The translations under genes were made by a program, and so were the position numbers. The notes below the pieces were generated by a model, which was not told the DNA's origin, made no database searches, and worked only from the letters and a program-made list of their open reading frames with translations. Positions 2 to 18,000 of a DNA stretch of 34,209 bases are shown here, one piece after another (the stretch's first letter is position 1; each line of letters starts with the position of its first letter). Source of the DNA: a virus; the IMG/VR virus record IMGVR_UViG_3300012928_000021, positions 1 through 34,209 of that record, one strand, 5' to 3'.

Positions 2-3000
2 CGAAATTTTAGTAGACCTCTTGGTAAAATCACAGGGTCTATAAGCGAGTTTAATAAATCTTTAGAAGCTTCCAATGCTCGTGTTCTTGCTTTCGGTGCA
101 TCAGTTGGAATAATACAAGGTGTGCAGAGTGCATTTGCTTCACTTCTAAGAACAACAGTCGAAGTAGAGCAAAGGCTAACAGAAATAAACATAGTGATGG
201 GGCTAACGAATAAGCAATTAGAAAGCTTTTCCAAAAGTCTATTCGCTGTAGCAAAAAATACAGCACAATCATTTTCAACTGTAGCTACTGCCGCAACAGA
301 ATTAGCTAGGCAAGGTCTGTCAATGGAGGAGACTCTAAAAAGAACTAATGATGCCCTTATATTGACAAGGCTAACTGGTCTTGATGCCGCATCAGCAGTT
401 AGCGGTTTAACAGCGGCATTAAATACATTTAATAAAGCAGGATTAGATTCTACAAAAATATTAAGTAAAATGGCTGCTGTAGATGTTCAGTTTGCAGTAA
501 GCACAGAAGACTTAATAGATGGTGTATCACGTGCTGGTGCTGTTGCTCAAGATGCTGGAGTAAGTTTCGATCAACTCCTTGGTGCGGTAACAGCTGCACA
601 GCAACAAACTGCTAGAGGTGGTAAAGTTATTGGTAATAGTTTTAAAACTATTTTTACAAGAGTCCAAAGGTCTAGTACGATAAACAGGCTTGAAGAACTT
701 GGTATAGCAGTAAGAGATGTAGCTGGAAATACATTACCAGCGATTCAAGTATTAGAAAATTTATCAAGAACATATGAAACTCTAGCAGACACCACAAAAG
801 CTGCTGTAGCAGAACAAGTTGGTGGTGTTTTTCAAATCAATATATTAAAAGCGGCTATCAAGGATTTAGCTGAAGAAAATAGTATATTAGCTAGAGCTAC
901 TCAAATTTCAGCGAGCGCTACTGATGAAGCTTACAAGAAAAACGAAATATTAAATAGATCTATGGCTGCATTAGCCTCTCAAACAGCAACGAGTGTAAAA
1001 GAGCTGGCTAGTATAATAGGAGACTTAGGATTTTCTGATCAAATTACAAATTACCTTACCATATTAAAAGATCAAATATCTGGTATAGCTGACTTTTTGG
1101 GCCAAGATGAAGGCGAGTCTGCAGGATCTGATTTCGCAAAAGGATTAATAAAAGGTATAGGAAATGTAATAAGCGGTCCAGGTTTATTTGTAGGTTTGGC
1201 TATATTAGGAAAGTTATTTATTAAAACAGCTGGATTCTTAGCTGGAAGTGCAAAAGAACTACTTGGGGTTGTAAGCGCATCACAGAAACAAAAGCAAGTA
1301 CAAGAGTCTATAGTAGCCATACTAGCAGAAAACAGCGGATTACAAAAAAGAATTTTAGCTCAAGAAGGAAACAGAGCAGCGCAAGAAAAAACAATCCTAA
1401 CAATACTTCAAGCCCAATCAAGAGAACAACAAAAAATAGCTGCAGCTGCAAAAGCTATAGGTCCTGGTGTTTTGAGAGCAGGATTTAACACAAACTTAAC
1501 AAGAGGTAGAAGCGAAGGTCATGTACCAAACTATGTAAGTGCGGACGAAAGGATGCAAGAAAAAATTGGAGCAAAGTCTGGAGGATATACAGCTGGCTCA
1601 GTTAAATCAATGAACCTTCCAGGAGAAGGCAGGGTAGTTTATAATAGTGCTGAAAAAGTTAAAAAATTTCCAGGCATGCAACAGCCTGCAATAATGCCGC
1701 CTCAATCAAGTTCGGCTGGTAAAAAATACAGAAAATCATTTGAAAAAATCCATGGCTTTAATCCATATGCAAATAAAGGTTTAGTTCCAAATTATGCATT
1801 AGATAATACTCCTGTATTCGGATACAGGACAATGTTAGAAAATGCAAAAATTTCAGGATCAAATTTTGATTTAATAATTGACAAAATTCAAGAGGAATAC
1901 ATGTCTGCCCCTCAAAACCAAAAAGGGCAGTTAATGCCATTGAACAGATCAAATCCTACATTTAGGACTTATTATAATAAATTAGATTCAGTCGCTGAAG
2001 GTATTAAATTTTTAGATAATAAAGGATTAGATAGGTTAAGGGATCAACTTATCGCTGATGATAAATTTCAAGGAACATTTGACTTAAAAAAATCTGGAGT
2101 AGGAAAAGTTGATATGACTAATCCGTTACAAGTTTTAAAACAAACTTCTGGGCGGGATATTTTTAATTATTTATTAGGAAACACATCAAGGATTAAAACA
2201 AAAATTCCTAATCATTATCTTGAGTTTAGGGATAAAGATGAAGGAGCATACTCATTAATAGACAAAAGAGAAGGGCTAACCAAAGGAACTAAAAGCCGCA
2301 GATATTTAAATACAGATGATATATTACATGATATATCAAAAAGAGTAAAATATGAAGTAGACTTATTAAAAGATTCTAAGAACAGGCAAAGAGATGCTGT
2401 TCTTGAGCGGGCAAGCAGAGATCAGCTGGCTTTGGCTTTTGACCCAACCAGAGGAGAAGCTTATAGAAAACATCAAGAATTAATCAAACGTAGAAATGTT
2501 GGAGGTATGTTAGCCCAACTTTACAGATCTCCTGTAGCATCCGCATCTCCCTATAGTATGCCAGATGAGTATATAAAAAAGGGCGAGGGCATAAAAAAAT
2601 TCAGACAATTTGGAGACTTCTCTTTATTCAGAAATAGAGCGAAGCAAAAAGCTATAGAAAAGAAATTCGAAGCCCAGCAGTCCAGTATAAACTTCGGAGC
2701 TTCCGCAAAATATGGAGCATTAGATTTATTAAAAAGAAGCGAGGCGGGGCAGTTTTATATAAATAAACAAGTAGTACAAGACTTTGAAAACTTGGTTAAT
2801 GCACAAGATAAACCATTATCAATCAAAGATGCGGAAAAAGAAGTAAGTAGGAGAATTATAGTTAGTAAAGATATAGATGATTATTATTCAAAACTTGATA
2901 AAGATTTTGCAAAAGGCATAAGAGGAAGAAGAAGGTTTAGAGGCTCAGGTTCTATACCTAATTATGCCATGAGAATAGGCGCATCTAGCGTAAAAAGTAT

Positions 3001-6000
3001 TATACCGCCTATACAAAGTAGAGCGAAAATAATGCAATCAGGAGCCCATGATGAAACCATAGGGTTATCTAGGTTAGGTGAAATACTTAGAGGTAGATTA
3101 TTTACATCTATAAAGTATCAAAAAGGTTCAGGAATGCAAGACCTATATATATCTGGAGCCAGAGGAGGAGTTCACAAATATAAAAAAGGAGCACCGCCCC
3201 CCAAGGGATTTAGTTCTTGGCGCGAGTTTAATGATTCTCATGGTATAGCATCAGTACATGCAAACTCTGTAGGTGTTGGGGCAAAAGGTTACAGAAGATT
3301 AAAGTTAAATAAAATAGATAGCATCGTATCTCAAGGAAAATTATTAAAAGTAGATCCTAATCTTTTAAACCAAGGATTAATTCCTAATTTTATGCTTAAA
3401 AGGTTAAAGACGGTCAGTCAGGCTGTAAAAATGTACAAGCAAGACACAGGACAGTTTGGTTTATTAGGAAAATCTTTCTGGAGCAGAAGAACAAACGATA
3501 TAAAATTAAGAGAAAGTAATTATGATGATGTAAGGCAATTCTTAAATAGCAGTGCCTTTAGATCTCTGCCAGATGCAGAAAGAAATAAAATCATTAAAGA
3601 CTTAAGAAATCAATCAGAAACTCTCAACTTAAATGATGTAACAAGACCTTATTTTCAATATGGAAACCCTGATTACGAAGGAAGAGTTTTTTCGAGCAAA
3701 GGCTTGATACCTAATTTCACTAAACTCATGTCCTCATCTGCAGGGCAAATTTTATCAAAAAATCCTCAATATTCAGGAGCCGTGGGAGATGCAATAGCAA
3801 GAGAAGCTTCGTTTGGACTTACCCCTAAAGTAGTTTCAGCTCCATCATTAAAAAGCTCAAGAAATCCTGGACTAGCCGTTGTAAACAAAGAGCAAGAAGG
3901 TGGTCTTCTTTCAAATGCTAGAAAACTACATGGAGGTTTAAATCCAAATAAAAAAGATTCTGCAGTACCAAATTATGCAATCAATCCAGTAGGACTAAGT
4001 GAAGTTTTACAGCTTAGAAAAAGATCAATACAAACAATTGATTCTGCAGGGTTAAATTCTTTAAAAAAATCCTTTAAAAGAGCCGCTTCAGTAATTGATA
4101 AATTTAGTGCATCTGGAAAAGCATCAAAACAGTTTTTAGATAACCTAGGCAAACAATATGCACAAAGTTCTGTTTTAATAAAAGAAGCAAATTTAAGGAC
4201 CAAAGCCTCTCTTGGAACCTTAGGAGGAGAGAGCGCGGAAAGACAACAATTCATGAGGCAGCAATTCAGAAGAGATGCTTTAGAAGGACTAGGAAGTAGG
4301 GGAGGTACAATTGGAGAATTAGCGAAAAACCTTCAGCAATCTAAAAACTTTGAAAAAGACTTATTGTTTCAAATGGGTGTTGCTGCTAAATCTGGAGACA
4401 CTGAGACTTTAAAAGGTTTAGAAAAAATAAATAAAACTCTAAATAAAAGCGCTGATAGCGCCATGGATCAGCCCAAAACATTAGCGAGAGAGTTAGAGAA
4501 AAATTTACAAGCTCAATCTGATTTCTCAAGAAGAGAAGAGCGATTCATGGGCAACAAAGGTTATGATAGAAGAGAATTAAGAAAACATTTAGCTCAAGAC
4601 TTTTTGTCCTCAAGAAATATAAAAACAGAAAGCCCTGAACAAGCTTTAGCCACGATTGATAAAATGGGCAAAAGAGGGCGAGAAGACTTCACTCAATACG
4701 CAGCTAAAGAAAGGGGGGTAATGTCTTCAAATGCAGCTTTAGCAAGAGCTGGATTCGAAAGCGGAATGTTTAGACAGATGACAAAAGATTCCGTAACAAT
4801 GGGGGGACCAAACTCTAAAAAGTTTATAAGCACATTATCATCACTTCAAAAATCTTTAGATACTGGAGATGTAAGAGGTCGAAAAGAATTAACAAAAGAT
4901 TTAATGACCCAGGCGGCTAGAATAGCCAAAGACCCAGCAGAAGCATCAAAAATGCAATCCATGATTGCCGCAATGAATGCTGAGCAGAAGAACAAAGAAA
5001 GAGACAGGAAAAGAGAAAGAACACAAAGAACAGCTCAGAGACAAATCGCACAGGGAGGCTTTCTTAATAGAATTACTGGAGCTTTTAATGCGGGAAGATC
5101 TGGTGCAGAATTAAGAGGTGGAGGGAGCTTTCTTAGCAGAGGAGCTCAAAGTATCTCAAGGGGAGCTGGAAGGGTTGCAGGAGGGTTCAAACCTGCAATG
5201 CAAAAATTTGCAACACAAGGAATGGGAAGTTTTGGCGGTCAAGTAGGATTAGGTTTATCTTTTATAGCTCCAATGCTTGGAGGAATGGTTGCAAATAGAA
5301 CTGCAAGAGAAGATAGATCTTCACTAGTTGACGGTCAATATCGAGTAGGAGATAGAGGTGGAGATGTAGCATCAAGTACATTAACAGGCCTAGGAATGGG
5401 TGCTATATTCGGACTTCCTGGAGCCATAGTTGGAGCTGCATCTGGATTTATTATGTCCATGAAGAATGCAACTCTATCAATAGATGAGCAGATAAAAGTT
5501 CGAGAAAAAGAAATAAATTTAATTGGTCAAAATTTACAAGCAGCACAAAGTATCCAGAATCTTTCGAACGAAAGAGCTGTAGCATTTAGCCAAGGAGACT
5601 TTGATAAAGTAAATCAAATTGATGCAGCGACCAACAGAGCATTAGCAGGAATTAATGATGCGCAAATTTTAAGAAAATTAGCTACTTCAGGAGGTGACCC
5701 AAAAGCAATAAGTGATGTACAAAAACAGCTTCAAGACGATATGTCAAATGCTGTAAGTATTCAAAATTTCGGAGTAGCTTTAAAGAACAGCGACCAAAGA
5801 AAAGCTGCAAAAAATGCAGGGGTAGCAATGGGCTCTATAATAGCTCAATCCATAAGAAATGAAGATGCTGATGAATTTAAAGTTATAGAAGCTTTACAAA
5901 AAATACAAACATCTTCAGCGGTAGGACAGAGAAAGCTTACAGAGCTTGGCATAGACGGAACAGGAGGATTAAATGCAATAAGAAAAAGAGCCGCAGGACA

Positions 6001-9000
6001 ACAAGGTCTATTAAGCGGTGGGTTTGAAAGAACTGGAGCAGTTGCGGGAGGATTAGCGGGAGCAGGTCTTGGTTTAAAAGCAGGAGGACTTTTGGCTGCT
6101 GCTGGGCTTACAGTTGGCACAGGAGGATTAGCCCTTCCTCTTTTATTGGCGGCGGGTCTTGGAACCGCAGGAGCATTTGCTGGAAGAGGGATTGATTCAT
6201 CAATAGCTGAGAGCGACTTAAAAGAAGCTAGATCCTTAGGTGCGGATGAAATAGGCGAACTATCAGCTCTTGTAGAAGCAGGAGCGATGACAGAAACACA
6301 AATGCAAGCATTAACAGCTGCTTTTAGAGAAGGAGAAATTAGTATTGGTGATATTGCAAAAGAAGCAGAAGATGCTGTAGTGCAATTTCAAAAAATCAAA
6401 AAATCAGCAGACAGAGCAAGCGCAGCCCTGTTTGATATAGAAAAATCCTTTAATAAGACCATAAGTAAAATGGCTATTGATCTTGAGGTTGATAAAATAA
6501 GACAAGGAGCAACAGCTAGAGCTGATTCATCTAATGCACAATTTGCATCTCAATTTTTATCTCCAATAAATGCTTCTGACTTTTTAGCAAGAGAGCAGAG
6601 CAGAATACTAGGCATTCAAGCTCAATCAAATATAAGCAACTTCGAAAGAGAATCTGATATAAATTTCCTAAGACAAGTAAAGCAAAACAGTAAAAACTTA
6701 AGCCTCACAGCCCCCCAAATGGATTTTATTAGAAGTACTGTCGAGAGTCGAGGTGCCGCCCCGATAGAAACAATGATAAGACAAAGGCAAATGGGCGGGA
6801 CGATGAAAATGAATTTAGGAACTGGAGAACTAAATGATATATTTAAATCGGTAGGGTTTGATGGCGTTGGCGATTTTGAAAGAGCTCAAAGAGCAGGCGG
6901 AACAGCGGTATCAGATAGATTCAAAATGCCAACCGAAAAAAATGCAAGAAGCAATTTGATGCAAATTTTTGGAACTACGCAAGATCAAAAGGGAATAGAT
7001 GAAGAAGAAAGAATAGTAAAAGAAATAATTCAAAATCTTGGTTCAATTAGAGAGACAGGGATTTTTACAACACAATTTTCTAAAGCATTAGATAGCAAAG
7101 GGGCTGAAAATTTAACTGAAATACTTGATGCACAAAGAGAAAGACTTAGAGTAATTCAAGAACAAATTCTTGCACAAAGAAAAGCTTTAAGTGTTCAAAT
7201 TGCTCAAAACAAAATACAAGCCAAGATACAAACTGAACTTGAAGTACTACAACAAGATTTGCAAAACAGGGATATTGATGCCCAAACTAATATGATGCGC
7301 AACAGAGGAGTTGCTGAAACGAGAAAATCTTTCTTTGGATTTCAAGCAAGCAACCCTGATTTGTTCAGAGGAATAAGTTCTGATGAAACTGAAAACCAAA
7401 GACAGGCAGGCTTAAGAAAACAAATGTTTCAGGAAGATCTTAGAATAAAAAAACAAGAAGCATTAAATACTTTCAAGAGGGAAGCTGCTAGATTATTATC
7501 CGAAAAGGCGCTTGTAGATGCTTTAAATGGTTTAAAATCAGCAATTGATAATCAATTAAATATAGCGTCTGAAGAAGGAAATCAACAAATAGGTCCTGTT
7601 GCAGTTACACCACCAGGCAAAGGAACTGTGATAGGACCTGCAACTAAAACTAGTCCAGGAGGAGGAACTGCCATTTCAAGAGGAGGAACAGTTTTATCTC
7701 CTGCAGCCAAAAAGGATATAACAGAGAAATCTAAAGATATCGAATTTCAGAGACAAGAAATAAAGGAAAGACAAAAAGAACTAGATATTAATAGAAGTAC
7801 CCTAAACAGGCTAGCAGGGGGAAAGGATTTAAAAGGAGGCCAAATAGAAGAGCTTGAACAGCTTGCGAAAGATATAAGGGCAGCCGATAAATTGAGCAAC
7901 GAGCTGCCAACATTCCTTGGGATTTCGACAGGTGATTCGCCAAGAAAGAAGGCGATGGATAAAATAAGAAGCAGAATTAGAGATGATTTTAAAGGGATTA
8001 AAACTAAAAATGTTAGAATGGTTGACCCGCCTCAATTTGTCCCCTCAACAGGAGGACACGTCAACATACCGACTACTAAATATGCAGTAAAGACTCCAAA
8101 AACTGGAAATCAGCTATTAAGTCAAATCGGCCCTCAGATTGCTACAATGTCTCAGAATGCAATGAGCATTAAAGGTCAAATAAAGGAAGGTGAAGATGCA
8201 ATCGAAAATGCTAAAAAAATAATAGAAGAAAGGCAGAAAGAAATATCAAGAATAGAAGAAGAAGCAGCAGAATCAGTAGTTAGATTATCAAACACTTTAT
8301 CTGGAGAAAATTTAGATTTATCTAATATAAATTTTGAAAATACAAAGAATGCAATAAATCAGGTTTTAGCTACAGGAGATATAGATAAAGCATATGAAAT
8401 GTTTAATCAAAATGTTGAATCTTTGTTAGCTGATGATCCTTCTGGTCTTATTGCAGAAAAAGTAAATAGTCTTGGAAGTATTTTAAAGAGTTTGAAGGGA
8501 GGTCTTAATGAGTTTGAAAGACAATTTGATGTTAACGAAGCTTTAAATTCAGTGCAAGAATTTAATCAAAGTCTAAAGTTTTCAACTTATTCTAGTGGAG
8601 GAAGACAGCGAATAAACGAAAACAGAAATATACGAACAAGAGCGGCTGCTGGATCTAGGGCGGTTGATGCTGTTGCCGATCAAATAGGAAGGCAAAGAGA
8701 GTTTCAAATTGCCATGCAAGATCCAACCGCAACCAGTGCCGATAGAGCTAGAGCTAGAATAGCATTTGAAAGTAGTAGTATAGGAACTAAAGACCAAAGA
8801 GATAGGCTGATGTCTATGCAAAATGATTTTGCAAATCAAAATAATGCTTTGGTTTCAGCTCAAATGTCTAAACAATTATTCGAAGCTCAACTTAAACAAA
8901 ACGAAAACGATCCAGCTGCAAAAGATGGGCTTGCATCTGCAAATAAACAGATCCAAGACTTAGAGCAAGCCATGAAAACATTAGATAAGAGCATGAATGA

Positions 9001-10405
9001 TTTAGCTCTTTTGATGGACAGAGAAACTCCTAGAGATAAAGGTTTCTTATCTGAATTTGGTCAAAACATGAGCTCTGGACTAGCTCTCGGTTTCGGAGAG
9101 ATAGAAGAGTCGTCCGAAAGGATTTATACACAACTAGGTAGAGATCTTCCACTCGTCTTTAGAGATGGCTTGGTGGATGCAATGCAGGCAGCTTTAGATG
9201 GAACGCAAAGTATAGGGGATTCTTTCAGGCAAATTGGAATAGATCTACTTAAAACAATGCAAAGAGCATTCCTTACTAGTGCCGCTAACAGAATGACATC
9301 AATGGTTGGAGATGTTTTCAACTTAGAAATGAATAGGGGTGGGTATGTAAACGGAGGAAGCGGAGTTAGAGATGATGTTCCTGCCATGCTCATGGGAGGA
9401 GAGTATGTAATAAAGAAAAGCGCTGTAGACAAATACGGAGTAAACTTTTTAGAAAATTTAAATAGAGGTACGTTGCAAGGATATGCAGATGGCGGGGCAG
9501 TTTCATTAAGGGTCGGAGCTCCAATGGTTGCAGAAAGAGAAAAATATGTAGATAAAAATAAATACGGAAACGTAACAAGATATAAGACCAAACAAGCTGG
9601 CATAGGAATAAGTAGCCAACTTTCTGGATATGCAATATCTAATGATCGAGCAATCCAAAAATATTTCAGAGACCAAGAAACTCAATTCCAAGAAGATCTT
9701 GCAACAAAAAAGCAAGAAGAAATGAGGCAAAAGAATAAAGACTACCAGAAAAAAGTTATGAAAAATAGCATCTGGAACGCAATTATAGGAATTGCAGGGG
9801 GAGCACTTTTATCAAAAGGATTAAGCTGGGCTCAAGGAAAATATAGATCAACAGATTTTGCAAAAAATAGAGCTGCAAAAAGAAGAGCAAACAAACTTGA
9901 ATCACAAGGCTACTTTAAGGTAAAAGGTCAAAGTATAGAAAAATCATTTCCAAAACCTTCAGACCAAGCTTTATTTAGATCAGAAGCTCAAAAAGTATTT
10001 AACACTAAAGGTCCAGAGGCTGCTGGAAGATTTTTATATGATAATAATGTAAAAGCTGTTGTAGACAAAGAAGCGATGCAGTTCAATAAAGGAGGAGCCG
10101 TTCCTTCTGTGCTAACTGGCGGAGAGTATGTAATGAGCCCAAGCGCCGTAAAAACTTACGGCTCAACATTAATGAATAGCATAAATTCTGGATCTTTGCA
10201 AACATCGCCGTCAGGAGGCTCGCAAAACTCATCCGTAAGCAATGTATCACATGGAGATGTAAATGTAACAATAAATGTATCGAGCTCTGGAGGCACAGCC
10301 ACTTCTGGAACTGATATAAACTCGAATGAATTTGCAACAAAAGTAAAAAGTGCAGTTATGTCGGTAATAGCAAACGAAAAGAGGGTAGGTGGATCATTAA
10401 GATAA
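2..10405 (+). CDS. Tail tape measure protein, 5'-truncated by window edge
   Basis: Sets tail length and is normally expelled from the tube when DNA is delivered. The frame is open from base 2 to the TAA at 10403-10405 (3467 codons), so the GTG at 122 is internal and the true start lies upstream. Residues are numbered here from base 2. About residues 1-390 match the TP901/PhageMin_Tail N-terminal region (conserved stretch SISEFNKSLEASNARVLAFG near residue 14). A long, helical, Lys/Glu/Gln-rich body follows, interrupted by six [VI]PN[YF] motifs between bases 1517 and 3976. Gly/Ala-rich hydrophobic segments lie near bases 1165-1260, 5230-5460, 6037-6200 and 9765-9830. A Pro/Gly linker sits near 7600-7710. 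Two GGEYV boxes lie near the C-terminus, and the end (EKRVGGSLR) resembles other tape measure C-termini. At 1.5 Å per helical residue this implies a tail of roughly 0.5 µm. The next gene starts one base after the stop. Confidence 0.93.
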   Translation, partial: RNFSRPLGKITGSISEFNKSLEASNARVLAFGASVGIIQGVQSAFASLLRTTVEVEQRLTEINIVMGLTNKQLESFSKSLFAVAKNTAQSFSTVATAATELARQGLSMEETLKRTNDALILTRLTGLDAASAVSGLTAALNTFNKAGLDSTKILSKMAAVDVQFAVSTEDLIDGVSRAGAVAQDAGVSFDQLLGAVTAAQQQTARGGKVIGNSFKTIFTRVQRSSTINRLEELGIAVRDVAGNTLPAIQVLENLSRTYETLADTTKAAVAEQVGGVFQINILKAAIKDLAEENSILARATQISASATDEAYKKNEILNRSMAALASQTATSVKELASIIGDLGFSDQITNYLTILKDQISGIADFLGQDEGESAGSDFAKGLIKGIGNVISGPGLFVGLAILGKLFIKTAGFLAGSAKELLGVVSASQKQKQVQESIVAILAENSGLQKRILAQEGNRAAQEKTILTILQAQSREQQKIAAAAKAIGPGVLRAGFNTNLTRGRSEGHVPNYVSADERMQEKIGAKSGGYTAGSVKSMNLPGEGRVVYNSAEKVKKFPGMQQPAIMPPQSSSAGKKYRKSFEKIHGFNPYANKGLVPNYALDNTPVFGYRTMLENAKISGSNFDLIIDKIQEEYMSAPQNQKGQLMPLNRSNPTFRTYYNKLDSVAEGIKFLDNKGLDRLRDQLIADDKFQGTFDLKKSGVGKVDMTNPLQVLKQTSGRDIFNYLLGNTSRIKTKIPNHYLEFRDKDEGAYSLIDKREGLTKGTKSRRYLNTDDILHDISKRVKYEVDLLKDSKNRQRDAVLERASRDQLALAFDPTRGEAYRKHQELIKRRNVGGMLAQLYRSPVASASPYSMPDEYIKKGEGIKKFRQFGDFSLFRNRAKQKAIEKKFEAQQSSINFGASAKYGALDLLKRSEAGQFYINKQVVQDFENLVNAQDKPLSIKDAEKEVSRRIIVSKDIDDYYSKLDKDFAKGIRGRRRFRGSGSIPNYAMRIGASSVKSIIPPIQSRAKIMQSGAHDETIGLSRLGEILRGRLFTSIKYQKGSGMQDLYISGARGGVHKYKKGAPPPKGFSSWREFNDSHGIASVHANSVGVGAKGYRRLKLNKIDSIVSQGKLLKVDPNLLNQGLIPNFMLKRLKTVSQAVKMYKQDTGQFGLLGKSFWSRRTNDIKLRESNYDDVRQFLNSSAFRSLPDAERNKIIKDLRNQSETLNLNDVTRPYFQYGNPDYEGRVFSSKGLIPNFTKLMSSSAGQILSKNPQYSGAVGDAIAREASFGLTPKVVSAPSLKSSRNPGLAVVNKEQEGGLLSNARKLHGGLNPNKKDSAVPNYAINPVGLSEVLQLRKRSIQTIDSAGLNSLKKSFKRAASVIDKFSASGKASKQFLDNLGKQYAQSSVLIKEANLRTKASLGTLGGESAERQQFMRQQFRRDALEGLGSRGGTIGELAKNLQQSKNFEKDLLFQMGVAAKSGDTETLKGLEKINKTLNKSADSAMDQPKTLARELEKNLQAQSDFSRREERFMGNKGYDRRELRKHLAQDFLSSRNIKTESPEQALATIDKMGKRGREDFTQYAAKERGVMSSNAALARAGFESGMFRQMTKDSVTMGGPNSKKFISTLSSLQKSLDTGDVRGRKELTKDLMTQAARIAKDPAEASKMQSMIAAMNAEQKNKERDRKRERTQRTAQRQIAQGGFLNRITGAFNAGRSGAELRGGGSFLSRGAQSISRGAGRVAGGFKPAMQKFATQGMGSFGGQVGLGLSFIAPMLGGMVANRTAREDRSSLVDGQYRVGDRGGDVASSTLTGLGMGAIFGLPGAIVGAASGFIMSMKNATLSIDEQIKVREKEINLIGQNLQAAQSIQNLSNERAVAFSQGDFDKVNQIDAATNRALAGINDAQILRKLATSGGDPKAISDVQKQLQDDMSNAVSIQNFGVALKNSDQRKAAKNAGVAMGSIIAQSIRNEDADEFKVIEALQKIQTSSAVGQRKLTELGIDGTGGLNAIRKRAAGQQGLLSGGFERTGAVAGGLAGAGLGLKAGGLLAAAGLTVGTGGLALPLLLAAGLGTAGAFAGRGIDSSIAESDLKEARSLGADEIGELSALVEAGAMTETQMQALTAAFREGEISIGDIAKEAEDAVVQFQKIKKSADRASAALFDIEKSFNKTISKMAIDLEVDKIRQGATARADSSNAQFASQFLSPINASDFLAREQSRILGIQAQSNISNFERESDINFLRQVKQNSKNLSLTAPQMDFIRSTVESRGAAPIETMIRQRQMGGTMKMNLGTGELNDIFKSVGFDGVGDFERAQRAGGTAVSDRFKMPTEKNARSNLMQIFGTTQDQKGIDEEERIVKEIIQNLGSIRETGIFTTQFSKALDSKGAENLTEILDAQRERLRVIQEQILAQRKALSVQIAQNKIQAKIQTELEVLQQDLQNRDIDAQTNMMRNRGVAETRKSFFGFQASNPDLFRGISSDETENQRQAGLRKQMFQEDLRIKKQEALNTFKREAARLLSEKALVDALNGLKSAIDNQLNIASEEGNQQIGPVAVTPPGKGTVIGPATKTSPGGGTAISRGGTVLSPAAKKDITEKSKDIEFQRQEIKERQKELDINRSTLNRLAGGKDLKGGQIEELEQLAKDIRAADKLSNELPTFLGISTGDSPRKKAMDKIRSRIRDDFKGIKTKNVRMVDPPQFVPSTGGHVNIPTTKYAVKTPKTGNQLLSQIGPQIATMSQNAMSIKGQIKEGEDAIENAKKIIEERQKEISRIEEEAAESVVRLSNTLSGENLDLSNINFENTKNAINQVLATGDIDKAYEMFNQNVESLLADDPSGLIAEKVNSLGSILKSLKGGLNEFERQFDVNEALNSVQEFNQSLKFSTYSSGGRQRINENRNIRTRAAAGSRAVDAVADQIGRQREFQIAMQDPTATSADRARARIAFESSSIGTKDQRDRLMSMQNDFANQNNALVSAQMSKQLFEAQLKQNENDPAAKDGLASANKQIQDLEQAMKTLDKSMNDLALLMDRETPRDKGFLSEFGQNMSSGLALGFGEIEESSERIYTQLGRDLPLVFRDGLVDAMQAALDGTQSIGDSFRQIGIDLLKTMQRAFLTSAANRMTSMVGDVFNLEMNRGGYVNGGSGVRDDVPAMLMGGEYVIKKSAVDKYGVNFLENLNRGTLQGYADGGAVSLRVGAPMVAEREKYVDKNKYGNVTRYKTKQAGIGISSQLSGYAISNDRAIQKYFRDQETQFQEDLATKKQEEMRQKNKDYQKKVMKNSIWNAIIGIAGGALLSKGLSWAQGKYRSTDFAKNRAAKRRANKLESQGYFKVKGQSIEKSFPKPSDQALFRSEAQKVFNTKGPEAAGRFLYDNNVKAVVDKEAMQFNKGGAVPSVLTGGEYVMSPSAVKTYGSTLMNSINSGSLQTSPSGGSQNSSVSNVSHGDVNVTINVSSSGGTATSGTDINSNEFATKVKSAVMSVIANEKRVGGSLR
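1517..3976 (+). repeat. Six recurring [VI]PN[YF] motifs in the tape measure protein
   Basis: Six short motifs of the form G/S-x-[VI]-P-N-[YF] occur in the N-terminal third of the protein: GHVPNY (1517-1534), GLVPNY (1778-1795), GSIPNY (2948-2965), GLIPNF (3374-3391), GLIPNF (3701-3718) and SAVPNY (3959-3976). Several are preceded by Asn-Lys-Gly or Ser-Lys-Gly. The spacers are about 87, 390, 142, 109 and 86 residues long and do not resemble each other. The same hexamer is not seen in the rest of the protein. I recall similar GxVPNF-type motifs in other large phage virion proteins, but know of no established function. Confidence 0.75.
9332..10204 (+). repeat. Two GGEYV boxes at the tape measure C-terminus
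   Basis: Two copies of a motif run N-[RK]-G-G-x-V ... VPxxLxGGEYVxxxSAVxxYG, followed by an Asn-x-Gly-x-Leu segment. The first begins at 9332 (VPAMLMGGEYVIKKSAV) and the second at 10085 (VPSVLTGGEYVMSPSAV). They are about 250 residues apart and separated by a charged helix and a hydrophobic segment (IWNAIIGIAGGALL, near base 9770). Boxes with this GGxVPxxLxxGEYV pattern are common at tape measure C-termini. Their role is not known to me; binding to the tail tip is a guess. Confidence 0.7.
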
Positions 10406-11237: not shown

Positions 11238-11995
11238 GGTACATAAGACATCAAGAATGCGAAATAGAAATTAATAGTAATAAATTTTTCGCAAAAAGGG
11301 CTACTCTTTCAGCTGGATCATCTGTACAAGACAACAGAGTTTACGGAGGAGGATTAAGATCTTATTCTTCAACGTCTGCTTTAGAAGCTTCTGTAGAATT
11401 TTCTTACTATATAACTGGAGATAATGACCCATTAATAGCATTAACAGGGACTCATTCTTGTACAGGGAAATTTTGTGGAATAGAGTTCTCAGGAGCATAC
11501 TTAACAAGTTATAATGTAAATATAGCTCCTTATAGACTTGTAGAATTTTCGGCAGCTTTTTCGATATACAGCGGTTTTAGAAATGAAACTCAAACAGGGT
11601 CTTTTAAAACCGATCCAATGAAATTGGCAAATGGAGCATATACAGAACTGCTAAATTTTAACAAAAATAATATAGGAATTGATTTTCCAAATGATATTAA
11701 TTATAGAGTGAGTTGCGAAAGAACCCCAAACTATGTAATTGGTCATGAATATCCTCAAGATGTCAGACTTGGAAAAGTCGAAAAATCAATTTCAGTCGTA
11801 GGAGAAAATGTAGGTTCTATAATAAACTTTTCAGGAAAAGATTTTGCAAAAATATCAATATCTCCAAAAAACATAGATTATGCAGCAAGAGGTCAAACTA
11901 TAGAATGCGAAGGAATGATATCGTCTCAAAATCTTGACATTTCATCTAACGGATTAATGAACGGATCTATAGAAATAATAGAAAGCGCAAGATGA
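11234..11995 (+). CDS. Two-domain tail-tube-fold-like protein (paralogue 2)
   Basis: A 253-aa protein translationally coupled at both ends: its ATG overlaps the previous TGA, and its own TGA overlaps the next ATG. Matching segments with its neighbour and with the product at 30566-31738 are VEFSYYITGDNDPLIAL (against FSFSYFLSDMDNEKLF), FSGAYLTSYNVNI (against FTGAFLSSYSMEI), IGHEYPQDVRLGKVEKSISV (against IGSIFPCEVVLG...KFSI) and MISSQNLDISSNG (against LLSQDFSTNSE). Two related β domains are therefore likely. Three cysteines (HSCTGKFC and a later CER) are present, but no metal-site pattern is recognised. Position between tape measure and gpM-like genes points to a ring at the distal end of the tail tube. 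Confidence 0.6.
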   Translation: MRYIRHQECEIEINSNKFFAKRATLSAGSSVQDNRVYGGGLRSYSSTSALEASVEFSYYITGDNDPLIALTGTHSCTGKFCGIEFSGAYLTSYNVNIAPYRLVEFSAAFSIYSGFRNETQTGSFKTDPMKLANGAYTELLNFNKNNIGIDFPNDINYRVSCERTPNYVIGHEYPQDVRLGKVEKSISVVGENVGSIINFSGKDFAKISISPKNIDYAARGQTIECEGMISSQNLDISSNGLMNGSIEIIESAR

Positions 11996-12966
11996 CCCTA
12001 GATTTAAAAAATTTTTGGAATCTCGATGAGAGGGATTTTTATCAAAACTCTAATAATCAAGGTGCAGATTATTACAATTCTTATTCTTCTTTTGTAAAAA
12101 ACTCGAAAACAGATCAAACACTTAAGAACTTTAAATACTCAAACCCTTTTTCTTTTATACCTTCTTATGGGTCTACTGTAAATATAGCATTTGTTAGCGA
12201 TGTAAATAAGTACGGAAATTCATATTTCTTAATGGAGCCAAGAGGATTAAATCGATTAATATTTTCATTAGATTTAAATTTTGAAAATAGAAGTGATGAC
12301 GAATCTGATTTAATAATAAAATATATAAACGAAAGAGAAGGAGCTCTTCATTTTCCTTTTCAAACGTTAGAAAGAGTCGGACTAAGCCAACAAGATGCAT
12401 ACAAGTCTTTATATTCAATGAAACCTTATATGGTACAAGATTTCACTTGCTCTAAAATATCTTCTTCAAATAATTATGTAAATAACAATTCCATAAATTT
12501 ACAATTTGACAATACATTATATAGTCAGCTTAATTCAAAACAGATAATCTATTCAGAATCATTGCCGTCTGAATCAAAAAATATAATTGAAGAATACTGG
12601 AATAAGGGAGAATTAGACATCCAACCATCTTACTCCTTAGATAGAGAAGAAATATATGCATTAAAAAATATTCAACTCGGATCATCTAGAACCTTCAAAG
12701 AAAAAAATGGAATTAACAACAAATTAGTATCGATAGATTTAAAATTTAATGCAATAAAGGATGATGTACTACTCAAGCTTCTTGCTTTTTTTATTTCAAA
12801 ACAAGGGTTTGAAACTTTTCAATTTCAACTGGAAAAACCAGAAAAAAGAAAATTAAATTTTTATTGCAGTGAAATAAATCATACTTTTTTATATATGGAT
12901 TCTCATGATTTAAATGTAAGAATAAATGAAGTTCCAGTTAGAAGAAGATTTTTTCATAAACCTTAG
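11992..12966 (+). CDS. Lambda gpM-like minor tail protein, tandem two-domain
   Basis: A 324-aa protein. Residues about 221-316 follow the lambda gpM layout: a strand with a polar turn (LKNIQLGSSRTFKEKNGIN), then LVSIDLKFNAIKDDVLLKLL, a helix, then ISKQGFETFQFQ and a final strand pair. gpM has the same order, with ATVLESFLEEHGGWKSFLW in the matching place. Residues about 60-185 show a second, looser copy (FSLDLNFENRSDDESDLI, INEREGALHFPFQ). Lambda gpM is about 110 aa with one such domain, so this looks like a duplicated and fused form. It would form part of the tip complex below the tube. The ATG overlaps the preceding stop (ATGA). A 35-base gap to the next gene is one of the few non-coding breaks on this strand. 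Confidence 0.65.
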   Translation: MTLDLKNFWNLDERDFYQNSNNQGADYYNSYSSFVKNSKTDQTLKNFKYSNPFSFIPSYGSTVNIAFVSDVNKYGNSYFLMEPRGLNRLIFSLDLNFENRSDDESDLIIKYINEREGALHFPFQTLERVGLSQQDAYKSLYSMKPYMVQDFTCSKISSSNNYVNNNSINLQFDNTLYSQLNSKQIIYSESLPSESKNIIEEYWNKGELDIQPSYSLDREEIYALKNIQLGSSRTFKEKNGINNKLVSIDLKFNAIKDDVLLKLLAFFISKQGFETFQFQLEKPEKRKLNFYCSEINHTFLYMDSHDLNVRINEVPVRRRFFHKP

Positions 12967-13001: not shown

Positions 13002-13907
13002 ATGGCATATCTAAAAAAAGAATCTGTAAATGCTGAAATATTTAACCACAGTAAAAATGCTATAATAGAACTGATGGAGATATCAGAAATAGCAAACTCT
13101 GTAGATACTATAAGATTTCATGGGGGAGTAAATGCAACTAATGAATCTATAATCTTTGGAGGTAAGGAATATTTTTATATACCATATGAGGGAAGTGATT
13201 TTTCTACTAGATCAGACGGTCAGATATCAAGACCCACATTAAAAATAATTAATTATAGTGGGTTTTTATCAAAATATATATTAGGAAAAGATGATTTAAT
13301 AAAAGCAAAAGTTAAAAGAATAAGAACTTTTACTAGATTTTTAGACCAAGTAAATTTTGCAAACTATAATGCTGACAAAACCTTCTGGGACAGTTTAGGA
13401 GTAGCTCCAGATCCTGGTGCCACCTTAAGGCCAGACATATGGTATGTTAATCAAAAAATAGAAGAAAATAAATTTTATGTAGAATTTGAGCTATCTAATG
13501 CTCTAGATCTAGAAGGGAACACCCTACCAAGAAGGCAGATAATTAACAATTACTGCACATGGAAGTATAGGGGAAAAGGCTGTAGATATAACGGAGGTGC
13601 TGTAGCAGATTATAATGATACTAATTTTGATACACCTGGATTAAACCCAAGAGGAGAATGGAAAACTTCACAAAATTATGTAGCTGGAGATGTGGTTTTT
13701 TTAGTAACAAAAGAAGTTACAGAAAATAGAAATGTTGTTTATGTATGCACAGACCCTCATACATCAACCGAAGAAACGAGACCATCGATAGACAAAGATC
13801 ACTGGGCGGCAGATGCATGCTCTAAAACACTATACGGTTGCAGGTTAAGATTTGGAGAAGGTAACCCTTTGCCTTTTGGAGGTTTTCCTTCGAGTAGATT
13901 ATATTAA
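13002..13907 (+). CDS. L: Lambda gpL-like minor tail protein with Fe-S cysteine signature
   Basis: A 301-aa tail-tip protein. The C-terminal half carries four cysteines in the gpL arrangement: C185-x8-C194 (NYCTWKYRGKGCRYNG) and C273-x6-C280 (ACSKTLYGCRLRFG), ending in LPFGGFPSSRLY, which is characteristic of the family. Lambda gpL coordinates an iron-sulfur cluster with such cysteines. The N-terminal half is β-rich (ESIIFGGKEYFYIPYEGSDF; PTLKIINYSGFLS). Between the cysteine pairs lie 78 residues, several times longer than I recall for lambda. The extra part (220-268) looks like a small carbohydrate-binding module and is listed separately. The gene lies between gpM-like and gpK-like genes, exactly as in lambda. 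The start follows a 35-base AT-rich gap and has no Shine-Dalgarno sequence. Confidence 0.9.
   Translation: MAYLKKESVNAEIFNHSKNAIIELMEISEIANSVDTIRFHGGVNATNESIIFGGKEYFYIPYEGSDFSTRSDGQISRPTLKIINYSGFLSKYILGKDDLIKAKVKRIRTFTRFLDQVNFANYNADKTFWDSLGVAPDPGATLRPDIWYVNQKIEENKFYVEFELSNALDLEGNTLPRRQIINNYCTWKYRGKGCRYNGGAVADYNDTNFDTPGLNPRGEWKTSQNYVAGDVVFLVTKEVTENRNVVYVCTDPHTSTEETRPSIDKDHWAADACSKTLYGCRLRFGEGNPLPFGGFPSSRLY
13659..13805 (+). other. CBM5/12-like insertion inside the gpL-like protein
   Basis: Residues 220-268 show the pattern W-x5-Y-x2-G-D-V-V ... Y-V-C-x3-H ... P-x6-W: WKTSQNYVAGDVVF, then VVYVCTDPH, then RPSIDKDHW. This matches the aromatic/Gly-Asp skeleton of family 5/12 chitin-binding modules and of related small modules in phage tail proteins. 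It lies exactly between the two cysteine pairs of gpL, so both flanking halves of the cluster-binding core are kept. A sugar-binding role is inference from the pattern only. Confidence 0.5.
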
Positions 13908-13909
13908 TC

Positions 13910-14299
13910 ATGGAAGAATTTTTAAAAGAAATAAAAAAAATATCAAAATCTAAAAGCGAAATTGAAATTTGTGGTTTTTTGCTAAAAAAAAATAAAAAAA
14001 TACTAATTAAAGATTGCGAAAATATTGCCATAGATAAAACTTGCAACTTTCAAATATCCTCAAAAGACTATATAGATGCATGGGAACAAGCTGAAATAAT
14101 AGCTATTTATCATTCTCATCCTAAAAGTTCTGAAAAATTAAGTGAAATTGATATTTCGATAGCTGATGAAATGATGATACCAATAATAGTATACTCTAAT
14201 AAAAATAATAAATTTAACATTTTTACACCAGAAGGTATTAATAAAAATAAAACTCTAAAAGATCTAGAAAAAAGTGTAGTATTAGGTGTAAAGGGCTAA
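13910..14299 (+). CDS. JAB/JAMM metallopeptidase, gpK N-terminal-domain-like tail assembly protein
   Basis: A 129-aa protein with a complete JAMM zinc site: E19 in EICGFLL, then H68-S-H70-P followed by S78-x2-D81, which fits H-x-H-x7-S-x2-D exactly. Lambda gpK joins this domain to an NlpC/P60 peptidoglycan hydrolase. Here the protein ends at about 129 residues and carries only the peptidase half. It sits immediately before the ubiquitin-like gpI gene, the pairing of JAB peptidase and β-grasp partner known from phage tail operons. The probable role is proteolytic processing or another step of tip assembly, with gpI the most obvious partner. The start lies two bases after the previous stop and has no Shine-Dalgarno sequence. 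Confidence 0.88.
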   Translation: MEEFLKEIKKISKSKSEIEICGFLLKKNKKILIKDCENIAIDKTCNFQISSKDYIDAWEQAEIIAIYHSHPKSSEKLSEIDISIADEMMIPIIVYSNKNNKFNIFTPEGINKNKTLKDLEKSVVLGVKG

Positions 14300-14304: not shown

Positions 14305-15006
14305 ATGAAAATACATTTACATGGAAAAATAGGTAATGAGTTTGGTAAAACTTGGGATTTAAATGTATCTAGCCCAAACGAAGGATTAAGAGCTATAGAT
14401 GCAAATACAAATGGTTTTTTTAAATACCTTAATGAAAGACAAGATGATAACATATTTTTTAAAGTATATGTTAATAAAAAATTAGTACGCAATCATAAAG
14501 AATTAGATATTGATTCAGAAAACATAAAAGAAGTTCATTTCTTTCCTTTCGTAAAAGGCGCAAATGAAATGGGAAGAGAGTATCTTAAGTGGGGAGGCAT
14601 AGGACTAGGAGTTTCATTTGGTTTAGATTACTTAGGTAGCTCGATAGGCGGGTCAATTGGAGGTTTTATAGGAGCAATTGCTGATATAGGATATGAAATA
14701 AGTTTATCTCTCTTAATGCAGGGAGCCATATCTTTTTTACAAAAAGAACCTCCTCCCCCTCCAAGCGAAGACGTGGCTCCATCTCAAAAAAATACATCAT
14801 CTTTTACTTTTTCAAGACCACTAAACAATACTACTCAAGGAGCTCCAGTTCCTGTTGGTTATGGAAGGTTGAGAATCGGAAGTCATGTAATTTCTTCTTC
14901 AATAATGAATACAAGATTAGTTGCATTTAACCAAGTCAGGGATTCTGTAGTAGATCAAAATGGAGACTTAGTTGGAGCAGTTAATGTAGATCACTATACC
15001 ACATAA
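14305..15006 (+). CDS. I: Lambda gpI-like tail assembly protein (ubiquitin-like N-terminus)
   Basis: A 233-aa protein. Residues 1-85 look like the β-grasp (ubiquitin-like) domain of gpI: MKIHLHGKIGNEFGKTWDL, a helix (NEGLRAIDANTNGFFKYL), then FFKVYVNKKLV and EVHFFPFVKGA. A Gly-rich hydrophobic stretch follows (GGIGLGVSFG ... GGSIGGFIGAIADIG, about 93-140), then a Pro run (PPPPPSE). The C-terminal motif PLNNTTQGAPVPVGYGRLR is typical of gpI. In lambda, gpI is needed for tip assembly but is absent from the finished virion. The JAB peptidase just upstream is its expected partner, possibly cutting between the β-grasp part and the rest; this is inference. The next gene starts one base after the stop. 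Confidence 0.88.
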   Translation: MKIHLHGKIGNEFGKTWDLNVSSPNEGLRAIDANTNGFFKYLNERQDDNIFFKVYVNKKLVRNHKELDIDSENIKEVHFFPFVKGANEMGREYLKWGGIGLGVSFGLDYLGSSIGGSIGGFIGAIADIGYEISLSLLMQGAISFLQKEPPPPPSEDVAPSQKNTSSFTFSRPLNNTTQGAPVPVGYGRLRIGSHVISSSIMNTRLVAFNQVRDSVVDQNGDLVGAVNVDHYTT

Positions 15007-15007
15007 A

Positions 15008-18000
15008 ATGCCCTTTAAATTATATTGCCATGCAGAACATACGGACCCCAGAATATTCAAAAGGGAGGTCTTAGGCAATTATACACCATCAAAAGAAGAT
15101 AAGGAAAAACTACAATCAACAGCTTTTGTAAAATCTTTAGATTTACTTTGCGAAGGGCCTATAGAAGGAATTGTAGATGCAACTGGCAAATTAGTAGAAG
15201 GAAGCGATATACTAAAAGGTGTTTATTTAAATGAAGTCCCTATTCAAGTAACAAAAAAAGGATCTCCTTTATATAATTTTAGAAATGTATCATTAGCATA
15301 TAAAAAAGGTACAGAAACACAGGCTCCATTTTGGCCTAATCAAAATAATAATTTTAAGTGGTTAGAAGATTTTTCATATACATCTAAAACTGTAGGGCTA
15401 AATATCAATTTAGATAATCAAACTGTCTTAGAGGCAGACAGTCAACCGAAAAAATTAAATGCTCAAGCATCTTATTCTGTAATAGATCAAGATGTAGATT
15501 TCCTAGGTTTAACTTTATCTATAGATCAATGCTATAACACTGATGAACAAGGTGTTCATCAAAAAAATGATGGAGGATTTCATATTTATGGAGATATTAC
15601 TGGAATAGTTCACAGAAGCCTACCAGCAGGAGAAGTGCAAGCAATAGATGATGATGGAGTTAATGAACATAATGTGCATGTTTTCGTAAATGGATTGGCT
15701 TTAACTCCATATAAAGAAGATATATTTTTAAAATTAAAAGATGTAAAAGATATTGGAAATACAAGACCTAGGCATGTACATATTAAAAATACCACAGCCC
15801 AATCTTTAAATTTTAGATCTAAATTTGCTGCAAGTTTAGACTCTGTTACTGAAATTGTTGATGCAAATTTAAGCATTCCTCATTCGGCAACAGTAGCATC
15901 TTTAGTAAGTGCTGAAAACTTTAGTGGACCGCCAACTAGATCTTTCGATGTAAAATTAAAAAAAGTAAAAGTTCCTTCTAATTATGTAGAAAAAATAATC
16001 GGACCTGATGGGCCAACAAAGAAAAGAGCTTATTCATCTAGCTACGGAGCAGAAGGCTCAGAGCATAGCAGCGAAGAAAGGCATGAAGGAGTTTGGGACG
16101 GAAATTTTAAAGCAGAATTAGAGTGGACAGATAACCCAGCTTGGATTTTATATGATTTAATTACTAATGATAGGTATGGGCTTGGAGAATATATAACAAA
16201 CACTAATTTAGATAAATGGGAGCTATTTAAGATAGCTAAATATTGTGATGGCCTAGTTCCTACATCAATGGGTAACGCTTCTAATGATGGATTTATTCAA
16301 GAAAGAAGATTTTCCTGTAATATATTACTTCAAAATGCAGCTGATGCATTCCAAACGATTAATGAAATAGCTTCTATTTTTAGAGGAATAGCTTATTTTA
16401 ATAATTTAGATATTTTTGTAGCAATTAACAGCTTGAAAGAGTCTGTAATGAGCTTTACAAATGATAATGTTCTTGATGGAGTATTTCGTTATTCAGGAAC
16501 TCCAGAACATACAAAATTTACAGCCGTAAAAGTTGCATACAAAGATAAAGAAGATTCTTTCTTGCCTAAATATGCATACATAGAAGATCCAGAAGGGATA
16601 ATAAGATACGGCATAAGAATGAAAGAAATAACAGCCGTTGGTTGTACTTCTAGAGATCAAGCACTAAGGTTAGGCAGGTGGACTTTACTTACAGCTAGCC
16701 TAGAAGAAGAAACAGTTCAATTTGCCACAGATAGATCTGCCGAATATATAACCCCAGGTCAAGTATTTACAGTTAGGGATGAGCTCAGGAAAACTCAAAG
16801 AACTGCAGGGCGAGTAAAAGGAATAGTAAGGCATAAAGATCCAGCTAACCAAAATTTTATATTACTAGATCAACAATTAGATACTGGAAACTACAATTAT
16901 ACTTCCATATCTTTTCTAATACCTGGCGAAGATTTTGAAGAATCTTCTGATACAAAACAATTTAAAGAATTTGTACATAGAAACGGTTACCAAATAGGAG
17001 CTCAAGATAATGGGGACAGAAACCCTCCTCATTTTCCTGCGATACCTTTACATTCCGACCCTATTAGTTTAGGTGGAGTATCTCAAAACACTAGTCTGCA
17101 CAATTATATAGAAAATACCCCATCAGGAGCTAAAATTCTTACAGACGAAGATGAGGATTTAATTCTTAAAAAACCTATATCAGGATCCTTCATATCAAAT
17201 AGTGCAAAGTATAAAACGCTGAATGATTATTTACTTGAAAGCGAACTTTTAAATACTTTTAGAAATGGAAATGACAGATCTCAGGTAACAGATAAAATAA
17301 GAGAAGGAGCTTTATACATGCTCCATGGAGAAAGAAAGGATGGAGTAAAAGACGACTTTCAAGGAAAAGACTATCAATTATTATCTACTTCGGATAATGG
17401 CGATGGAACTTATTCTATGGTTGGTTTAGAATATGACTCTGGAAAATTTAATAAAACAGATTCTTTATCAACTATATATACTGATACAGATTACGATTAT
17501 TCTCCAGGACCAGGTCAGCCAGGAGGTCCAGGTCCAAATCCGCCTCCTACTCAACCTCCAGTTGCCCCTCCAGTTGTTCAAATATCAAATCCTGGATATC
17601 CTGAAATTAATACAGTAGATTTAATAGTAAAAGCAAGTGGTGTTGTAAATTCACAAGGAGAAACAATCTCAAGAGTTCAATATTACTTTCATAATACTCA
17701 AGAAAATGATTTATATTATAAAAATTCATTATCTAATGCTTATTATGGAATGCGTATTGCAAAAATAACAGACTCCTACTATGGAAAATTATTAACAGCT
17801 ACTGATAATAGTGAGAAAATCATGCAAGAAGGACAATGGATAATACCAGATGTCCAGAGTTGCGGAGATTATAAAGTCGTATATGATAATACTAAACCAG
17901 CTGAATTAAATCACTTAACTCCTAGCGGCAAAGCTGTAATTGGCGGGCATGAAAATAAAACAGTAGCATTATCGACATTTCAAGCTAGTAATTTTAATCC

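Follow-up and report, generated by a model that had tools for sequence, protein, structure and literature searches.

A predicted CBM5/12-fold module inserted between the iron-sulfur cysteine pairs of a gpL-type tail-tip protein in an uncultured tailed phage

The gpL gene and its tail-tip neighbourhood

The window, that is, the whole stretch of 34,209 nucleotides that was analysed, belongs to an uncultured tailed phage and carries a group of tail-tip genes in the order L-K-I-J. The ORF at 13002..13907 (+) encodes a 301-aa tail-tip hub protein of the gpL family, as identified by Pfam, PHROG, phmmer and Foldseek. It matches PF05100 (Phage_tail_L) at E=3.9e-48, with 163.9 bits against a cut-off of 25, and the minor tail protein family PHROG 18 at 2.4e-70. 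phmmer connects it to the F2-pyocin hub (2.4e-26) and to lambda gpL (2.6e-22), and when its full-length model is submitted to Foldseek, lambda gpL is ranked first (2.1e-12), with the T1, RcGTA and R4C hubs below it. The gene is adjoined by that of a gpK-like JAB protein (13910..14299, +; Prok-JAB 1.9e-8; PHROG 30, tail), which is followed by that of a gpI-like tail assembly protein (14305..15006, +; PHROG 32, 8.8e-34), and a 2886-aa ORF at 15008 occupies the position of gpJ. The gpL gene of lambda likewise adjoins gpK, gpI and gpJ.

Several features of the neighbouring genes can be recorded here. In the window clade, gpK consists of the JAB half only (about 126-129 aa; window 13910-14299, locus L001 4909-5289, locus L057 3906-4289), and the peptidoglycan-hydrolase half is missing at the gpK position, while the distant relatives L016 and L017 retain both the JAB and the NlpC/P60 peptidase halves. 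Towards its end, the gpI-like ORF of L017 (2282-3460) shows a weak likeness to Hint/intein domains that stays below threshold (Hom_end_hint 7.1e-5, Hint 1.9e-4, Vint 2.6e-4). In the window itself, positions 11992-12966 encode a 324-aa minor tail protein in which the gpM-like PF05939 is matched at residues 214-313 only, with no match in the first 200 residues, and positions 2-10405 are occupied by a 5'-open, tape-measure-like ORF of 3467 aa with recurring motifs of the 'VPNYA/LIPNF' type.

The gpL protein begins with an HDI-type N-terminal domain (residues 1-184; 13002..13553, +), delimited by alignment to the lambda and F-pyocin hub proteins. Its cysteines stand at residues 185, 194, 249, 273 and 280. 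Four of them form the pairs C185-x8-C194 (13554..13583, +) and C273-x6-C280 (13818..13841, +), which align and are invariant across 15 gpL and are the predicted Fe-S ligands, so that the intact four-cysteine signature described in the sequence-only reading is borne out. The fifth, C249, is the cysteine of a 'VYVC' run within the loop between the pairs. Lambda gpL (PF05100; PDB 8iyk chain L) has the same HDI domain and the same C-x8-C and C-x6-C spacings of the [4Fe-4S] motif, but where it has 22 residues between Cys182 and Cys205, the window gpL has 78 between C194 and C273, including a predicted folded module.

The inserted module and its predicted fold

The first-to-third cysteine spacing of the window gpL is 88, and about 50-55 residues are additional between its cysteine pairs. 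By comparison of gpL proteins, profile matches in the PDB, AlphaFold and Foldseek, the inserted CBM5/12-fold module covers residues ~215-272 (13644..13817, +). Its core pattern, W220-Y226-GD-V-Y247-V-C249-H253-P261-W268 (13659..13805, +), runs exactly over the interval in which the sequence-only reading had placed a CBM5/12-like module; the pattern is thus present, but the limits of the module are slightly different. Y226, C249, P261 and W268 are invariant in the 11 gpL that carry a single module. The window contains the W/Y/GD/V/YVC/P/W pattern a single time, against 0.002 times per window in residue-shuffled ORFs, and a tighter version was found in 0 of 200,000 shuffles of gpL, both patterns having been composed after the sequence was seen.

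We examined the relationship to CBM5/12 at the level of profiles. The window segment scores 18.6 bits (E=0.0019) against Pfam CBM_5_12, and the best of the related inserts, a module of the L050 type, scores 23.0, with neither value reaching the gathering cut-off of 26.2. The alignment of all gpL is too diverse for scanning, and a profile of the 11 closest inserts, which is too narrow for this kind of search, gives no PDB match better than 0.05. A profile built from 18 inserts has as its top PDB matches two chitin-oligosaccharide deacetylases, 4ny2 (4.5e-5) and 3wx7 (9.6e-5), and matches the chitin-binding domain of ChiA1 (1ed7) at 2e-4. The same profile recovers L050-clade members that had been left out of it, and detects the module in a protein of Acinetobacter phage TRS1 encoded downstream of the tail-tip gene (2e-5). 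A weak match at 0.026, All3316 of the Anabaena contractile injection system, was rejected as a candidate; it is Cis13 in the corresponding paper, which describes a predicted transmembrane domain and makes no mention of carbohydrate.

Structure prediction points in the same direction as the 18-insert profile. Modelled alone, the segment is predicted by AlphaFold as a small beta module with a pLDDT of 92.3 and a pTM of 0.72, with the small antiparallel sheet and perpendicular loop of the CBM5/12 fold. A Foldseek search of the PDB with this model returns at ranks 1-16 nothing other than CBM5/12-bearing deacetylases or 1ed7, with TM scores of 0.63-0.75 in 15 of the 16 and E-values of ~0.06-0.5, which are expected for so small a domain; the match to CBM5/12 has a TM of 0.64 by query length and 0.79 by target length. 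The full-length gpL model (15 sequences) has a mean pLDDT of 62. In it, the HDI-type domain is mostly the better-predicted portion, the insert is moderate to good, with blocks up to 89, and the Fe-S segments, modelled with the cofactor absent, are disordered. We therefore make no claim on the orientation of the module, the Fe-S region being of low confidence. With this full-length model, Foldseek also aligns a CBM5/12-bearing deacetylase over 53 columns with a probability of 1.00. Profile search, AlphaFold and Foldseek thus agree with the sequence-only reading that a CBM5/12-type module lies between the Fe-S cysteine pairs, and we consider the inserted segment to be a module of predicted CBM5/12 fold rather than an established chitin binder.

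The residues of the module were compared with those known from chitin binders. Two core aromatics are common to CBM5 and CBM12, namely Y265 and W299 of CjCBM5 (PMC8449059), and the window module has both, as Y226 and W268. A consecutive pair of surface aromatics, Y-W or W-W, is important for chitin binding by CBM5 (PMC8449059); this pair is absent from the window module, in which a by-eye alignment on the conserved Y-x-A/C places D251-P252. The window run C-TDPHTSTEETRPS equals C-LQPHTSLAGWEPS of the ChiA1 sequence (1ed7) in length and aligns with it without a gap, and a C-x2-P-H-T-S...P-S run is common to both. The Trp of the ChiA1 'AGWEPS', which we take to be the binding Trp of CBM12, is absent from the window module, where T259 stands at the aligned position of 1ed7. 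Since both the CBM5 aromatic pair and this Trp are missing, it is unlikely that the module binds chitin in the known manner, though it may use different residues to bind some other glycan. The contact with sugar or peptidoglycan that the sequence-only reading had put forward would be a plausible role for the module. Besides lacking the chitin-contact aromatics and scoring below the Pfam cut-off, the window module differs from CBM5/12 domains in not being attached to an enzyme, and from the ChiA1 example in having about 8 more residues in the turn that leads into the Y-V-C strand.

Distribution of the insert and precedents in other hubs

The insert is missing from every cultured-phage gpL that was sampled. 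In those examined residue by residue (L020-L029 and L072-L076), as well as in the gpL of viral contig L055, the first-to-third cysteine spacing is ~32-38, with no insert. A broader tblastn sample, of 60 records spread over 1,224 matching phage records, gave the same picture, as all the matches extending past residue 295 lack the insert and are 48-72 residues shorter than the query. That the same loop might be present in most gpL, which the sequence-only reading had raised against the module, is rejected on these two grounds.

At least 4 divergent metagenomic gpL lineages carry the module at this position, and marine relatives of the window gpL are among the carriers. The window clade (L001-L007, L057) has a first-to-third cysteine spacing of 88, and the clade of L016, L031, L033 and L037, with ~35% identity to the window gpL, one of 86-88. 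The spacing is longer in the two other clades, at 115-121 for that of L050 and 168-176 for that of L017. In L017 (~1135-1380) and related loci, a weak, partial second CBM5/12-like copy precedes the main module (i-Evalues 2.8-6.2), and tandem modules are possible in this clade. With the sole exception of L057, every carrier of the insert that was found is a virus contig from a metagenome, in a sampling that is biased because the loci were fetched with insert-bearing queries. L057 (JAQXAG010000048.1), a contig of 61.5 kb assigned to a Candidatus Neomarinimicrobiota MAG, is the only cellular-genome match; its binning could be a hint at the host, or the contig could be a misbinned phage. In a tree of the HDI domain, all the insert-free rows fall on one side of one branch (91/80), setting aside L045, whose contig ends inside the loop and which is not counted as insert-free. 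This tree is therefore compatible with the insert having been gained once, or lost once, within the PF05100 family.

The arrangement was presented in the sequence-only reading as unfamiliar from lambda. This is true of lambda, but in two other hubs cryo-EM has already revealed that this site is taken by another kind of domain (PMC7296036, PMC10276861). In g13, the hub of RcGTA, the ion-binding domain (143-167 and 250-263) is split by an oligosaccharide-binding domain at 168-249 (PMC7296036), and in the hub of roseophage R4C, the ion-binding segments 142-161 and 244-266 are split by an oligosaccharide-binding domain at 162-243, for which the authors propose a horizontal acquisition (PMC10276861). 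In the R4C hub sequence, the insert is flanked by C-x9-C and C-x6-C. These hubs (PF09931/PF09356) resemble the window gpL in that an additional domain divides their Fe-S domain into two halves, and a sugar-binding-type domain between Fe-S cysteine pairs is already described from them. Their inserted domain, however, belongs to another Pfam family (PF09356) than the window module. We rejected the identity of the two, as hhalign of the module alignment with the R4C hub gives a probability of 0.1, with no profile similarity; neither the RcGTA nor the R4C hub appears among the best 50 PDB fold matches of the module. As the two domains differ, the RcGTA/R4C insertion is probably a second event, and what is new here is a different domain, of CBM5/12 fold, at a site with a known precedent for insertion.

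Domains of this fold, annotated as 'ChiA1-BD', are known from many phage tail and adhesion proteins. The named viral Foldseek matches of the module are mostly tail fibres, minor tail proteins and receptor-binding proteins, several of them annotated with ChiA1-type binding domains. The phage proteins among these matches are fibres, other tail proteins or proteins with no name, and none of them was identified in this analysis as a gpL Fe-S hub.

Candidate functions of the module at the tail tip

Lambda gpL is a trimer with its iron-binding domain at the outer surface (PMC10721106), and the C-terminal region of gpL is hypervariable and presumably near the cell wall (PMC13243795). Since published tails place the Fe-S domain of the trimeric gpL on the outer surface, the three copies at the tip would carry three modules pointing outwards. 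These modules may contact polysaccharides of the host weakly and multivalently, be it LPS, capsule or another glycan, and not necessarily chitin or peptidoglycan, and such a contact would keep the tip at the cell surface as the actual receptor-binding protein takes hold. We regard this outward, weak and multivalent contact with surface glycans as the best explanation and as somewhat probable. This analysis provides the homology, the site of insertion, the fold prediction and the occurrence in several divergent lineages, and published structures provide the trimer, the outer-surface position of the Fe-S domain and the same-site insertion in RcGTA and R4C, while sugar binding and its role are what we infer.

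The main rival is a module of CBM5/12 fold that no longer binds sugar. Small beta modules of phage tails can act as spacers or as protein-protein contacts, and the window module might accordingly stabilise the tip as a structural spacer or by binding to gpJ, gpM or a fibre. Such a function would agree with the strict placement and size of the module within clades and with the loss of the chitin-contact aromatics while Y226 and W268 of the fold core are retained (residue roles from PMC8449059). Against it stand the RcGTA and R4C domains, which occupy the same site, belong to another family and are also presumed to bind sugar, and the fact that other CBM families make use of different surface residues. 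Moreover, the insert is varied and elaborated between lineages, as one would expect of a part that touches a surface more than of a fixed interface. We thus hold the loss of sugar binding to be a possible reading, yet a clearly less likely one than the contact with glycans.

It is improbable that the module recognises a protein receptor or a pilus of the host instead of a glycan: small surface domains at phage tips can recognise proteins, and the canonical sugar site is absent here, but no positive evidence supports such a target, and the convincing solved relatives of the fold that were found are all chitin-related proteins. More improbable still, and very much so, is that a gpL loop of the usual kind has been lengthened here and resembles CBM5/12 by chance. 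The single-sequence Pfam score under the cut-off and the profile of the closest 11 inserts, without a significant PDB match, would be in line with chance, whereas the 18-sequence profile, the confident predicted fold and Foldseek all point to CBM5/12 and the cultured gpL have no such loop; on the 18-insert profile, the predicted fold and the shuffles, we rejected a chance motif.

The inserts bear on the Fe-S cluster of gpL, the function of which is still described as uncharacterised (PMC10721106). Two apparently unrelated types of module are found in the loop that the cluster closes, and the cluster may therefore pin a variable surface module at its base, a testable idea that these inserts suggest. 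More generally, and as a tentative proposal that we hold possible rather than likely, the inter-pair Fe-S loop of gpL-type hubs could be a general docking site, in which exchangeable glycan-recognition modules of unrelated folds were gained independently in several phage and GTA lineages, with the cluster as the clamp of a variable, outward-facing adhesin. If this is true, the long-unexplained Fe-S cluster gains a role. The module also makes the conserved hub, besides the fibres, a likely place of contact with the host surface in uncultured phages.
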